Part shown: positions 24,024 to 29,272 of the stretch, piece by piece
Layout: the number at the start of each line of letters is the position of its first letter
How positions within the stretch are numbered: position 1 is the stretch's first letter
NCBI GenBank assembly: GCA_006226415.1
Contig: SBGZ01000086.1
Coordinates: 1 to 62,955, forward strand
Direction: 5' to 3'
DNA length: 62,955 bases
DNA from: Alphaproteobacteria bacterium
Lineage (GTDB): Bacteria; Pseudomonadota; Alphaproteobacteria; M2410
Program-made: the position numbers and the translations under genes
The notes under the pieces: generated by a model
Databases searched by the model: none
What the model saw: the letters and a program-made list of their open reading frames with translations, nothing else
Told to the model about the DNA's origin: nothing

Positions 24024-24929
24024 TTAGGGTACGCGCGCCTGAGACAGCCAGAAGGGTATATGAATCTTCACTTCTTGTCCCTCGGCAGTAATCGGGTCTC
24101 CGCGCTCTTTGGCCGCTTCCCAGCGATCAAGTCGCACGAGGCTGAGCCCGTGGACGCCATGGGAGGACAACAAAGTGCCGACGTCAGACGCACCGCCCTT
24201 CAGCACGATCGGCCCTTCCGGCAGTACCGCATCGGCGGATATCGGCAGAAGGCGCTTACGCAAGGTAGTTTTATGCTTTGTCCGGGCGGTGACTTCCTGC
24301 CCGACAAAACAGCCTTTTGTAAAACTGACCCCGTTGAGCTCCGCAAAATTGCTTTCCAGAGCAAAGCTTGCGTCAGGAGGAAGGTCTCGAGATCCGTTGG
24401 CGAGACCAAGTTTCAAACGCGCCTCGTCATAATCATCCGGATCCCCGAGCTCAATGTCAGCATAATCGAGCTCTTCCTCGATCTTGGCGACATTACCAAT
24501 CACCCGAACGCCCATCAGGGCCAGGCGGGGATCGACAAAGGCGATGCCGCCAAAAGCCGGTTGGGCAGAACCCGCAACGCGCTCCGCCAGTCCCGAAGCC
24601 TCCACTGACTTGGGACCGAAGAGCGCCACCACGCCGGTGTGCTCCATCTGTGTGATTTCGACCGACGAGCGCAATTTGTAAAGCGTCAAGCGTTTGATCA
24701 GCTCGTCTTTTCTGGCGGCTTCACAGTCAATCAGAATGTCGTCACCGAATTGGACAAGGAAGAAATCAAAAAGGAGTTTGCCTTGTGGTGTCAAAAGGGC
24801 GCTGTAAAGGGCGCGGCTTGGGCTTAATAGATCGATGTCCTGGGTGACAAGACCTTGCAGCCATCCATGGGCATCGCTGCCGCTGATTTTTAGTACAGCG
24901 CGATCGGGAAGCAATGAAGCGAGGGGCAT
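24024..24929 (-). CDS. ygfZ: Folate-binding protein YgfZ (Fe-S cluster assembly factor)
   Basis: 301 residues from the ATG at 24929; a longer frame reaches 24971 but would overlap merR. The GcvT-like fold has LKISGSDAHGWLQGLVTQDI near the start and the diagnostic KGCFVGQEVTAR motif at about residue 200, with the conserved Cys. YgfZ/IBA57 proteins use tetrahydrofolate to support maturation of certain Fe-S enzymes, including radical-SAM tRNA-modifying enzymes. It begins 17 bases after merR and is followed 16 bases later by the persulfide dioxygenase, so the three genes are probably one operon. Confidence 0.93.
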   Translation of the reverse strand: MPLASLLPDRAVLKISGSDAHGWLQGLVTQDIDLLSPSRALYSALLTPQGKLLFDFFLVQFGDDILIDCEAARKDELIKRLTLYKLRSSVEITQMEHTGVVALFGPKSVEASGLAERVAGSAQPAFGGIAFVDPRLALMGVRVIGNVAKIEEELDYADIELGDPDDYDEARLKLGLANGSRDLPPDASFALESNFAELNGVSFTKGCFVGQEVTARTKHKTTLRKRLLPISADAVLPEGPIVLKGGASDVGTLLSSHGVHGLSLVRLDRWEAAKERGDPITAEGQEVKIHIPFWLSQARVP

Positions 24930-24946
24930 ATTGGGGGGATATCCTT

Positions 24947-25375
24947 TCAGAGCTTGTGATCTGTTACGCATTTGTCGTGATTTGAAAGAATTTCAATCAC
25001 ACGACAATTCGAGATCACCCCTCCAGCGCACTGATCGACCATGCGAGCGAGCTCTGTCTTAAGAGCCTGCAGGCGCATGATCTTGCGCTCAATCTCATTT
25101 AGGTGTTGCGATGCGATCTGATCTGCTTCACCGCAAGAAAGATCGGGCTTGTCCTGTAGCTCTAGGAGTTCGCGCACATCATTGAGTGAAAAACCCAAGT
25201 CCCGTGCATGGCGGATAAAGGCCAGCCGGTCCACATGGGGTTGGGAGTAAAGGCGCTGATTGCCTTCTGATCGATGCGGTGCGGGCATCAGGCCGATTTG
25301 CTCATAATAGCGCACGGTCTGTACCTTGACCCCACTGGCCTCCGCCAAAGGCCCGATGGTAAATTGCCCTTCCAT
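24947..25375 (-). CDS. MerR-family metal-responsive regulator (PbrR/CadR-like)
   Basis: 142 residues. The winged helix is at 5-70 (FTIGPLAEASGVKVQTVRYY and GNQRLYSQPHVDRLAFI). The dimer helix and metal loop carry Cys81, Cys116, Cys124 and Cys136. Cys81/116/124 match in spacing the three ligand cysteines of PbrR/CadR-type sensors of divalent metals (Pb, Cd, Hg, Zn). It is divergent from a CDF exporter whose promoter has the MerR hallmark 19-bp spacer and dyad. It also leads the ygfZ-persulfide dioxygenase run. Metal identity is not readable from sequence. Confidence 0.92.
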   Translation of the reverse strand: MEGQFTIGPLAEASGVKVQTVRYYEQIGLMPAPHRSEGNQRLYSQPHVDRLAFIRHARDLGFSLNDVRELLELQDKPDLSCGEADQIASQHLNEIERKIMRLQALKTELARMVDQCAGGVISNCRVIEILSNHDKCVTDHKL

Positions 25376-25419: not shown

Positions 25420-25483
25420 TTAAAGGGGTGAATCAAGTAACACCTGCTTGAGCTGAAGAAATTATGGCCTTTGGAGAGAATTG

Positions 25484-26104
25484 ATGAGCGGCTGTCATTG
25501 TGAGGACCAGGTATTTGACGGCATGTCGGGTGGTTATCGGCGCGTCCTTTGGACCGTAATCGCCATAAACGCCTCTATGTTTCTCGTTGAGCTGACGGCG
25601 GGGATCACCGCCAACTCCATGTCCCTGCAAGCAGACGCCCTCGATTTTCTGGGCGATTCGGCAACTTACTTCATCTCTCTGTTGGTCATTGGCCGCCCTC
25701 AACCCATCCGATCAAAGGCGGCCCTCTTTAAAGGTGCCAGTCTGGCTGTCCTCGCGGTTTGGGTTCTGGGATCGACCATCTATCGTGTCTTCATACTTGA
25801 GCAGCCGGATCAGCTGGTCATGGGTTGGGTCGGCGCTGCGGCGCTCGTCGCCAATCTGGCCAGCGTCTTGTTGCTTTTGAAATATCGCGATGGCGACGCC
25901 AATGTGCGCTCGGTTTGGCTGTGCAGCCGCAACGATGCGATCGGCAATGTGGCGGTCATCTGTGCCGCTGTCTTGGTCGGCCAACTGGCTTCAGCCTGGC
26001 CGGATCTCATCGTCGCCCTGGTCATGGCCAGTCTCTTTTTGACCTCCTCTGTCAAAATCTGTCGCCAGGCGATGGCCGAGCTGAAAACCCAAACCGCTGA
26101 GTGA
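25484..26104 (+). CDS. CDF-type metal cation transporter (short, no C-terminal domain)
   Basis: 206 residues from the ATG at 25484, with GGAGAG upstream. Six TM segments fill almost the whole length. The TM2 metal site reads ADALDFLGDS, with Asp where most CDF proteins have His. TM5 reads SRNDAIGNVAV instead of the usual HxxxD. The cytoplasmic domain of FieF-like proteins is missing. An N-terminal CHC (SGCHCEDQ) may bind metal. Known relatives of this RND-motif subgroup are small CDF members paired with MerR sensors. It should export a thiophilic or divalent metal under control of the adjacent regulator. Confidence 0.87.
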   Translation: MSGCHCEDQVFDGMSGGYRRVLWTVIAINASMFLVELTAGITANSMSLQADALDFLGDSATYFISLLVIGRPQPIRSKAALFKGASLAVLAVWVLGSTIYRVFILEQPDQLVMGWVGAAALVANLASVLLLLKYRDGDANVRSVWLCSRNDAIGNVAVICAAVLVGQLASAWPDLIVALVMASLFLTSSVKICRQAMAELKTQTAE

Positions 26105-26185: not shown

Positions 26186-27922
26186 ATGTCCGGATTTGCT
26201 GGCATACTCACAGACCATGGCGGACCGCCCTCCGAGGCGCATATGGCCGCCATGGCCCGCAGTTTGCGTCACCGTGGTGCCGATGAAGATGGTGAATATT
26301 CCACTGGCGGGTTCGCGGTCGTCCATGCCCGGCTGGCGACGCGCTACTTCGAAGCGGACGAACAGCCGCTGTTCGATGCTCAAGGGGCCGTTTTGGTGGC
26401 CGATGCGGAGTTTTCCGTCATTGAAAGCGATGCCGCGCATTCAAACCCAATAGCGCGTTACCGCGAGGCCGGACCAGGATTTGCTGAGCATATTCCAGGG
26501 TCGTTTTCCTTGGCGCTCTATGACCCGACGGGACGGACAATCCTCTTGGCCCGGGATCGCTTTGGGACGCGGCCTCTATATTATGCTGAATTGGCGGACG
26601 GCTTTATCTTTGCGTCTGAAATAAGTGCGCTTCTGGAGACCGGCATGGTTTCGCGCGCCATCGACCCGGAGCAGGTCGATCAGCTTCTGCAACTGCAGTT
26701 TAACTGTGGCCGTAAGACCATCTATCAGGACGTCCGGCGCGTCCTGCCCGGTGAAACCATCATAGCTCAGAACGGCAAAGTCGTAGATCGCATCCGGCGG
26801 GAAGTTTTGCCGCGTGGGGGTGTGAACCGATATACCCAGGAACGCGCGCTGACGGAGCTGACCAATGCGCTCAATCACAGTTTCGATCTGTGCCTGGAAC
26901 GAGAAGAACCCATAGGCATCTTCTTTTCCGGCGATATTGAAACCGCCGTGCTGCTGGACGCCAATCACGAGCTTGGTCGCCCTGTGCCGCGAATATTTTC
27001 GCCTTCTATTGAGGGTCCGCGCGGCCAGTTTGATCGGGAGCGCACCGATTATTACGCGGGCCAGCTGGGCGTTGAGGTCAATCGAATAGAAATTTCGCCG
27101 CAAAGTTTTTGGGACGACACGCCATCGATCATCAAGGCGATTGACGACCCCGTTGCGGACTACTCCATTCTTTATGCTTTCAATGTCGCGCGAGAAGCTG
27201 CCAGCGAGGTTAAGATCATGCTCTCCGCCACCGGGGCCAATGAGATTTTCGCCGGACGGAGCCGCTATCGCCGAGCCTTGAGGCCCTTCTGGCTGGGCGG
27301 ACGCGGCATGTATTCGCGCGGCTTCATGGAAGATCTGGGACTGTTAAGAGAAGAGCGCTCCGGTTGGCGCGACGCGATCGGCGCGGCTCAGAACCGCATC
27401 AACCCGGTGGTCTACACGCGCCTGCAGCAGGTTCAAGGCATTGATATGGGCGACTGGCTCGCCAACAATTTGCTCACGATGTACGACCGCTGCTATGGCC
27501 GCCATTCCATCGAAATGCGCTATCCTTATCTGGACGAACAAGTGGTCGATTTTGCCTTCCGGCTTCAGGACAAACAGAAGGTAGCCAATGGCCTCGGCAA
27601 GGCGCTTTTGAGAACGCGCTTGCAGCAAAAATATGCTCAGCCGATTGTCGCGCGGCGCTCCCGCCTATCCTCCATTCCGGTACGTGAGTGGATGGCGCCG
27701 CGCGCGGCGGTCCTCGGGCCTCTCGTGGCAAACCAGGAGGGGGTTAAGGCCATGTGTCGCCCGGATCAGGTGGAGGCGCTATTTTCTTCGGTAGATGCGG
27801 TGAAAAACAAAAGGCAGGGTTTGGCAGCCTGGCAACTTTTGTATTATGCCTTGTGGCACCGAATTCACGTCGAAGGGGCGGCCCATGAGGGCTCAATCCT
27901 TGAGGTACTCGACAACCGCTAA
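26186..27922 (+). CDS. Asparagine synthetase B-like protein with altered catalytic motifs
   Basis: 578 residues, AsnB layout: Ntn glutaminase domain (1-~205) and synthetase domain (about 220-560). The scaffold is recognisable (RHRGADEDG, LARDRFGTRPLYY, FASEISALL, EMRYPYLDEQVVDFA), but key residues differ. The nucleophile Cys2 is Ser (MSGFAGIL; codon TCC). The glutamine-binding NGE segment is replaced (VADAEF). The PP-loop SGGxDS is SGDIET (248-253). The second ATP/Mg motif SGxGxDE reads SATGANE (347-353). It is probably inactive as asparagine synthetase and may have another or regulatory role. The frame is intact and long, so it is not a decaying pseudogene. No strong ribosome site. Dihydroorotase begins 15 bases later. 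Confidence 0.85.
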   Translation: MSGFAGILTDHGGPPSEAHMAAMARSLRHRGADEDGEYSTGGFAVVHARLATRYFEADEQPLFDAQGAVLVADAEFSVIESDAAHSNPIARYREAGPGFAEHIPGSFSLALYDPTGRTILLARDRFGTRPLYYAELADGFIFASEISALLETGMVSRAIDPEQVDQLLQLQFNCGRKTIYQDVRRVLPGETIIAQNGKVVDRIRREVLPRGGVNRYTQERALTELTNALNHSFDLCLEREEPIGIFFSGDIETAVLLDANHELGRPVPRIFSPSIEGPRGQFDRERTDYYAGQLGVEVNRIEISPQSFWDDTPSIIKAIDDPVADYSILYAFNVAREAASEVKIMLSATGANEIFAGRSRYRRALRPFWLGGRGMYSRGFMEDLGLLREERSGWRDAIGAAQNRINPVVYTRLQQVQGIDMGDWLANNLLTMYDRCYGRHSIEMRYPYLDEQVVDFAFRLQDKQKVANGLGKALLRTRLQQKYAQPIVARRSRLSSIPVREWMAPRAAVLGPLVANQEGVKAMCRPDQVEALFSSVDAVKNKRQGLAAWQLLYYALWHRIHVEGAAHEGSILEVLDNR

Positions 27923-27937
27923 CCAAAGGAGCCCCGC

Positions 27938-29272
27938 GTGGCCCGCACATTCGATCTCATCCTGAAAAACGGCACTCTGGTCAATCATGACGGTCGCCGG
28001 ATCGCAAATATCGGCGTGATTGACGGCAAGATCGCCGAAATCGGCGAACTGGCGGGCGCTGATGCGGGCGAGGTGCTCGACGTTCAGGGGCTCCACGTGC
28101 TGCCTGGGGTGATCGATACCCAAGTGCACATGCGCGAGCCGGGAGTTGAGTATAAAGAAGATCTGGAGGCTGGCGGCCGCGCTGCCGTGCTGGGCGGGGT
28201 GACGGCAGTCTTCGAAATGCCCAATACCAAGCCCACCACCGATACGGCGGAAGCTCTGGAAGACAAACTCGCCCGTGCCCGTCACCGTATGTACTGCGAT
28301 CACGCGTTCTATGTCGGTGCGACGGACCGCAACATCGACAAGCTGGGTGAGCTTGAAAGCCTGCCAGGCGCAGCGGGCATCAAGGTGTTTATGGGCTCAT
28401 CTACCGGATCGCTCTTGGTTGCCGAAGATGAGGCGGTCGAAGCGGTCCTGCGAAATGGCCGCCGCCGCGTGGCCATCCATTCAGAGGATGAGTTTCGCCT
28501 GCAGGCGCGAAAGTCTCTGGCCGAAGAAGGCAACGTTTTAACTCACCCCCTGGTGCGAGACGCCGAAGCGGCTGTGATTTGCACCAATCGCCTGATTGCT
28601 TTGGCGCGGAAGACCGGCCGCCGCATCCATGTGCTGCATATTTCTACCGCTGAGGAAATGCCCATTCTGGCAGCGCACAAGGACATCGCGACCGTCGAAA
28701 CAACGCCGCAGCACCTCACGCTTTTTGCACCCGATTGTTATGAGGAGCTGGGAACTCTGGCCCAGATGAACCCGCCGATCCGTACCAAAGAGCACCGCGA
28801 GGGCATCTGGTGGGGGCTTGAGCAAGGCATTGTCGATGTCATTGGTTCCGACCACGCGCCCCATACGCTGGAGGAAAAGCAGGGCACCTATCCAAACACG
28901 CCGTCGGGCATGCCGGGGGTGCAGACCCTTGTGCCCATCATGCTTGATCATGTGAACGCCGGGCGCCTGAGTCTGGAGCGCTTTGTCGATCTGACCTCCC
29001 ATGGCGCCAACCGCACTTTTGGGATTGCTGGCAAAGGCCGTCTGGCGGTTGGCTATGATGCCGACATCACCATTGTCGACCTGAAAGCAAAGCGTGTGAT
29101 TGACAATAGCTGGATCGCCTCCAAATGTGGCTGGACCCCGTTCCATGGGCGCCAGGTTACGGGCTGGCCCGTTGGCACCATAGTGCGTGGCCACAAGGTG
29201 ATGTGGGAGGACCAGATCATCGGCGCCGCGCCTGGCGAACCCATCCGCTTCCAGGAAACTTTAAGGCCTTAG
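27938..29272 (+). CDS. Dihydroorotase / cyclic amidohydrolase
   Basis: 444 residues. GTG start with AAAGGAG placed 6 bases before it. Amidohydrolase metal ligands: DTQVHMREPG (HxH), carboxylated Lys in GIKVFMGSSTGS, HSEDE, HILHIS-type (HVLHIS) and the catalytic Asp in DVIGSDHAPH. It belongs to the bacterial class I dihydroorotase group (about 440 residues), catalysing closure of carbamoyl-aspartate to dihydroorotate in pyrimidine synthesis. Allantoinase-like or hydantoinase-like activity cannot be excluded because no pyrB is adjacent. It follows the asparagine-synthetase-like gene closely, suggesting co-transcription. Confidence 0.88.
   Translation: MARTFDLILKNGTLVNHDGRRIANIGVIDGKIAEIGELAGADAGEVLDVQGLHVLPGVIDTQVHMREPGVEYKEDLEAGGRAAVLGGVTAVFEMPNTKPTTDTAEALEDKLARARHRMYCDHAFYVGATDRNIDKLGELESLPGAAGIKVFMGSSTGSLLVAEDEAVEAVLRNGRRRVAIHSEDEFRLQARKSLAEEGNVLTHPLVRDAEAAVICTNRLIALARKTGRRIHVLHISTAEEMPILAAHKDIATVETTPQHLTLFAPDCYEELGTLAQMNPPIRTKEHREGIWWGLEQGIVDVIGSDHAPHTLEEKQGTYPNTPSGMPGVQTLVPIMLDHVNAGRLSLERFVDLTSHGANRTFGIAGKGRLAVGYDADITIVDLKAKRVIDNSWIASKCGWTPFHGRQVTGWPVGTIVRGHKVMWEDQIIGAAPGEPIRFQETLRP

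Follow-up and report, generated by a model that had tools for sequence, protein, structure and literature searches.

Why has a gene of the asparagine synthetase (AsnB) family been kept intact when the residues of both of its active sites have been replaced? The gene lies on the forward strand (26186..27922) of the window, by which we mean the whole stretch of 62,955 nucleotides of alphaproteobacterial DNA that was analysed. Its 578-codon frame is open throughout, and the predicted protein of 578 aa matches the Pfam profiles PF00733 (145.5 bits, gathering cut-off 21) and PF13537 (62.5 bits, cut-off 25), with PF13522 likewise above its cut-off. These matches bear out a first, sequence-only reading of the locus, which had described an intact frame of 578 residues on an AsnB scaffold and had proposed alignment with the AsnB/PF00733 and PF13537 profiles. 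The score for the asparagine-synthase equivalog TIGR01536 lies below the cut-off (208.3 against 267.1 bits, NCBIfam), while the intact ortholog P0004 reaches 409.7 bits, and for TIGR03108, the WbpS-type amidotransferases, the window protein scores 197.9 bits against a cut-off of 816.9. Based on the open frame, the profile matches and the alignment described below, we regard it as an AsnB-family pseudoenzyme. An AlphaFold run on two sequences yielded a model too poor to use (pLDDT 34, pTM 0.23).

The window protein was compared residue by residue with 94 intact orthologs and with E. coli AsnB, using the positions that we take to be catalytic in the latter (numbering of the mature E. coli enzyme). 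The N-terminal nucleophile (E. coli C1), a Cys in 94/94 intact orthologs, is replaced by Ser2 (codon TCC, 26189..26191, forward strand, as for all features of this gene). The glutamine-binding NGEIYN is replaced by VADAEF (residues 71-76, 26396..26413), where N74 has become D73 and E76 is retained as E75. The subsequent YN...SDCE loop has become shorter and no longer contains its Asp (D98), the loop carrying Y78 and D98 being deleted or replaced. In the GATase domain, the core that is best preserved is RDRFGTRPLY (residues 123-132, 26552..26581). Further downstream, SGDIET (residues 248-253, 26927..26944) takes the place of the PP-loop SGGxDS, with G236 changed to D250 and D238 to E252, and SATGANE (residues 347-353, 27224..27244) that of SGEGGDE, with the catalytic Glu E348 changed to Thr349 and D351 to N352. 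M432 is found where the intact family has a Lys (E. coli R387), and Ser492 (27659..27661) replaces the Lys equivalent of E. coli K449, which is conserved in 94/94 intact orthologs.

Nearly all placeable glutaminase and adenylation residues are replaced, the exceptions being E76 (as E75), R49, Gly235 and the last Glu of SGxGxDE. The glutaminase half lacks the catalytic Cys and the glutamine-binding NGE/D98 set (S2, D73-A74-E75, D98 loop gone), and the synthetase half lacks the SGGxDS loop, the catalytic Glu and Lys449 (SGDIET, T349, S492). Three changes named by the sequence-only reading, Cys2 to Ser, SGGxDS to SGDIET and SGxGxDE to SATGANE, were recovered in the alignment. Its statement that the NGE segment is lost was slightly overstated in that the Glu still aligns (E75); nothing else of the glutamine pocket remains, however. 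The catalytic Glu (T349), the Lys449 equivalent (S492) and the Lys that all intact orthologs carry at the position of M432 are losses beyond the four sites of that reading. From these motifs the protein is predicted to have no catalytic activity, and the annotation "asparagine synthase" would be wrong for genes in which both sites are dead (hereafter double-dead).

In a class-wide sample of 385 genomes, strong matches were obtained in 108, and 107 loci were read. About 94 alphaproteobacterial orthologs are intact and mostly occupy the same genomic position. The loci form one syntenic family composed of ygfZ on the opposite strand, glycosyltransferases of families GT9, GT2 and GT4, asnB and often a dihydroorotase gene (NF006559/PRK09060, here pyrC), and the window gene shares this position with ygfZ and pyrC. 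Seven members are double-dead and span three family-level groups: f1 with the window (G000), its genus-mate G001 and G002, f4 with G006, G059 and G060, and f137 with G141. G002 represents another genus of the window's family and carries T2, GGEVEG and SSGADE at the two sites.

Immediately upstream of asnB, a GT4 gene is present in 81/90 intact loci and in 0/6 dead loci (the dead groups are small and the rows related, so that p-values are only indicative), and glycosyltransferases were not found at any double-dead locus with upstream sequence. GT4 and GT2 orthologs are absent genome-wide from G000, G001 and G002, and GT9 from all four f1 genomes (G000 to G003). These f1 genomes are drafts broken up into many contigs, with G002 being 99% complete. 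Intact relatives have the glycosyltransferases between ygfZ (24024..24971, reverse strand, the upstream landmark of the locus) and asnB; in the window's genus their place is filled by a MerR gene (24947-25375) and a CDF cation-efflux gene (25481..26104, forward strand), the latter also present there in G002. Since GT4, GT2 and GT9 are absent genome-wide, the AsnB ortholog appears to have outlived its pathway in the window's lineage. Judging from the glycosyltransferase neighbours, among them the heptosyltransferase-like GT9, and from the WbpS precedent (PMC7468200), the original pathway may have been LPS-core amidation. GT9 is missing throughout the window's family, even from G002 with its completeness of 99%, which suggests an LPS whose core is not built by a heptosyltransferase.

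Another member of the window's family, G003, carries an intact AsnB together with GT4 on a 5.9-kb contig (C332, locus L040). This copy branches away from the dead copies of the family and would stem either from horizontal gain or from contamination of the MAG.

A quick tree, in which long branches meet, places the seven dead proteins in one clade (SH-aLRT 99), and each dead group, when placed alone, had no firm neighbour. In the PyrC tree f1 and f4 are joined (99/96) and f137 is added weakly (81/55); in the ygfZ tree, by contrast, f137 groups with an intact lineage (99/91). We therefore do not trust a single origin of the dead proteins on the grounds of their own clade, given its long branches and the disagreement of the ygfZ tree on f137. 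Because the PyrC and ygfZ trees differ on f137, the double loss may have happened once or twice. All six dead f1 and f4 members have in common a change from Gly to an acidic residue at position 250 (the second Gly of the PP-loop), and Pro273 and Ala259 are also common to the two groups. The ratio of AsnB to PyrC distances is 1.05 in intact pairs, about 3 in dead pairs and 1.64 within the window's genus, the last value being not unusual, as close intact pairs reach 1.4-2.7. These ratios fit a burst of rapid change that was followed by constraint.

Two explanations would make the replaced residues meaningless. Errors of assembly or sequencing in the motif codons would agree with the draft state of the window's genome (83.7% complete) and are virtually excluded by an independent genome. 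The only close relative found in the contig scan, G001 (MAG M3011; L002/L038), has a protein that is 90% identical and carries the same residues at all replaced active-site positions, nine of the examined sites being encoded by different synonymous codons (D73, E75, G249, D250, T253, S347, T349, G350 and S492). We therefore conclude that neither sequencing error nor chance accounts for these residues in the window's genus. Alternatively, the gene could be a decaying relic heading for loss after the glycosyltransferases disappeared, in keeping with the missing pathway, with an evolution between genera about three times faster than that of PyrC and with the weaker selection in f4 (dN/dS about 0.23 for the pair L172-L173, with dS near saturation). 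We consider this very improbable. In the window's genus it is already contradicted by a dN/dS of 0.061/1.89 = 0.032 between the window and G001 (approximate, as dS is saturated), which matches that of eight neighbouring housekeeping genes (0.021-0.081) and leads us to reject decay there; intact AsnB pairs range from 0.026 to 0.19. In addition, the frames are open in all seven double-dead orthologs over a deep divergence (L173 runs to the contig end), and the new residues were conserved through synonymous turnover.

Regional dN/dS between the window and G001 ranges from 0.010 to 0.063 across the protein, so that nonsynonymous change is clearly restrained throughout, and is lowest, at about 0.010, in residues 343-450. 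Residues 342-450 show 2/60 differences (3%) in the window's genus against 6-17% in intact pairs, with few differences overall. The sequence-only reading had favoured a retained function over decay and had suggested measuring dN/dS, and the low ratio, equal to that of the neighbouring genes, together with the conserved new residues and the seven intact frames agrees with it. Its question of whether Ser2, SGDIET and SATGANE are conserved among close homologs has a divided answer, as they are identical in G001 and differ in G002, which is also dead at both sites. Relatives with Cys2 and SGGxDS, which it had named as counter-evidence, were encountered only in other families and in the family-mate G003. 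With homology to an enzyme, missing catalytic residues and purifying selection all present, the pseudoenzyme status of the window protein is well supported.

What the dead proteins retain best is located outside the catalytic regions. They keep 79% of the family-conserved positions in the interdomain linker (residues 166-215, QLQF..RVLPGET, 26681..26830) and in the C-terminal tail (residues 501-578, AAWQLLYYALW.RIHVEG, 27686..27919), and 91% in segment 359-412 (RY..RP.WLGGR.M.SRG...WRD, 27260..27421), their most conserved stretch, which is mostly missing from E. coli AsnB. Only 27-45% are kept in the GATase N-terminus, the PP-loop region, SGEGGDE and the K449 loop. E. coli AsnB displays the reverse pattern, with 0.09, 0.17 and 0.23 in the insert, linker and tail regions against 0.38-0.83 in the catalytic regions. 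With divergent intact orthologs as control, generic AsnB positions are kept at 0.91 in the control and 0.51 in dead members, and family-specific positions at 0.65 and 0.55, respectively. Measured against this control, the dead members have specifically lost the chemistry and retain the greater part of the family's own features. The stricter expectation that dead proteins keep family-specific above generic positions in absolute terms did not hold, as the two fractions (0.55 and 0.51) do not differ significantly.

The gene is directly followed, as the sequence-only reading had stated, by a gene for a dihydroorotase-like amidohydrolase (PRK09060/NF006559; 27938..29272, forward strand; 772.7 bits for NF006559, cut-off 482), after a gap of 15 bp in which a Shine-Dalgarno-like AAGGAG of the downstream gene can be read (27926..27931, forward strand). 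The dihydroorotase gene lies directly downstream, at a distance of 2-38 bp, in 7/7 double-dead loci and is the only neighbour directly adjacent in all seven. Within 150 bp downstream, pyrC is found in 7/7 double-dead and 26/91 intact loci, where again the rows are related and p-values are only indicative. The genome of the window encodes a second, pyrB-linked dihydroorotase homolog (L184:2940-4220, contig C85) that has DMRVFVGEPG and no HxH metal motif, resembling the pseudo-dihydroorotases of aspartate transcarbamoylase (ATCase) complexes. As the pyrB-linked copy is without this motif, the adjacent dihydroorotase is probably the sole competent one in G000. The PRK09060 dihydroorotases themselves have a Gln in place of the first metal His (TQVHFREPG; 28109-28144 in the window, and orthologs), which is conserved in nearly all 39 PRK09060 copies and shared by 2gwn, the nearest solved relative.

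The erased sites and the lost sugar-polymer partner genes suggest that the protein is re-used for a task different from the old chemistry. We posit, with roughly even chances of being right, that it is a pseudoenzyme which survived the loss of its pathway and today works by binding, perhaps to the dihydroorotase encoded next to it. The ancestor would have been an AsnB-family amidotransferase working with LPS-core-type glycosyltransferases, its reaction probably the amidation of a sugar carboxylate as carried out by WbpS. The window's lineage lost the glycosyltransferases, and neither the ATP-pyrophosphatase/adenylation site (PP-loop, catalytic Glu, Lys) nor the Ntn glutaminase site (Cys, oxyanion Asn, glutamine loop) survived, with the protein nevertheless retained under strong purifying selection. 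Its present role is most likely non-chemical, that of a binding or scaffolding subunit, with the 166-215 linker, the 359-412 insert and the C-terminal tail, which are special to the ortholog family, as candidate binding surfaces. The likeliest partner would be the product of the gene 2-38 bp downstream, the dihydroorotase; a parallel is the inactive dihydroorotase of Pseudomonas. The evidence for this partner is gene adjacency, and we hold it as a tentative choice that is rather unlikely to be correct, as the adjacency may be an inherited linkage, given that 26/91 intact copies also have it. A similarly doubtful extension is that the former AsnB, having lost its LPS-sugar pathway and both active sites, was recruited to pyrimidine synthesis to serve the adjacent dihydroorotase as a subunit without catalysis or as a regulator, which would make it a second pseudoenzyme there beside the pyrB-linked pseudo-dihydroorotase of that genome. 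The strong Shine-Dalgarno sequence that pyrC carries of its own weakens the reading of a binding pseudoenzyme with a dihydroorotase partner, as does the weaker selection in f4.

Against this reading stands a role in the cell envelope, where the protein might be a regulatory subunit left over from the synthesis of surface sugars, with a nucleotide sugar, a glycan or another glycosyltransferase as its ligand. Intact orthologs sit among glycosyltransferases, AsnB relatives are established in LPS pathways (PMC7468200), and a GT4 homolog is kept elsewhere in the f4 and f137 genomes (38-43% identity), but in the window's genus and G002 the genome-wide absence of GT4, GT2 and GT9 leaves no known partner, and we consider this role unlikely. 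New chemistry on the old scaffold, either as an Ntn-type amidohydrolase with an N-terminal Ser or Thr nucleophile or as a non-ATP reaction in the synthase pocket, is improbable. Ser and Thr are legitimate Ntn nucleophiles, one of them is N-terminal in f1, G004 and f61, always together with Asn74 changed to Asp, and the pocket residues are conserved within the genus. However, the glutamine-binding loop with D98 is deleted, the rebuilt N-terminus of f4 and f137 has no such consistent residue, and the pocket differs between genera (SGDIET, GGEVEG, xGDLxS), unlike a shared active site. The tight spacing of 2-38 bp in 7/7 dead loci might also indicate that the gene is kept merely as a leader frame securing expression of the essential dihydroorotase gene; this is highly unlikely, as a leader needs no selection on the amino-acid sequence and pyrC has its own strong ribosome-binding site.

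Compared with known systems, the window protein shares with AsnB (PF00733 and PF13537, TIGR01536) the two-domain architecture, the RDRFG core, the linker, PYLD, K465 and the Trp-rich C-terminus. It differs from AsnB by the replaced Cys, oxyanion Asn, glutamine loop, PP-loop, catalytic Glu and Lys, and by its score below the TIGR01536 cut-off. WbpS/WbqG-type uronic-acid amidotransferases, an AsnB-related precedent in LPS pathways (PMC7468200), are built on the same scaffold, and the intact orthologs lie directly behind glycosyltransferases like wbpS, whereas the window gene has neither a glycosyltransferase partner nor an active site and scores far below the TIGR03108 cut-off. An inactive dihydroorotase is needed for the ATCase activity of Pseudomonas (PMC7053772), which provides a precedent for an inactive relative as a required structural subunit in pyrimidine synthesis, although its fold is different and the window protein is tied to this pathway by gene adjacency only. 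A literature search on AsnB pseudoenzymes returned no bacterial AsnB lineage with both halves dead that is intact and strongly selected. The survival of family-special features that are not linked to chemistry offers a testable case for a second, binding-type role that outlives catalysis.

AsnB relatives with one dead half are already known. Beta-lactam synthetase (1jgt) and carbapenam synthetase (1q15) are derived from AsnB and have no glutaminase function. Both are active ATP-dependent synthetases (PMC6594144), unlike the window protein, in which the PP-loop and the catalytic Glu are gone too and which does not show their pattern of a dead GATase with intact PP-loop and Glu. The orthologs of G004, G278 and G355 (L050, L162 and L164) fit this pattern, with a dead GATase domain and an intact PP-loop. 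A plausible order of events at the locus leads from intact enzymes with the pathway through half-dead forms to double-dead forms without it. The half-dead copies, which come from two families (f2 and f61), have Thr or Ser in place of the Cys and Asp in place of the oxyanion Asn, a beta-lactam-synthetase-like state. In the double-dead f4 members L056, L172 and L173, the N-terminal 80-90 residues are rebuilt beyond recognition and the remainder is still alignable.
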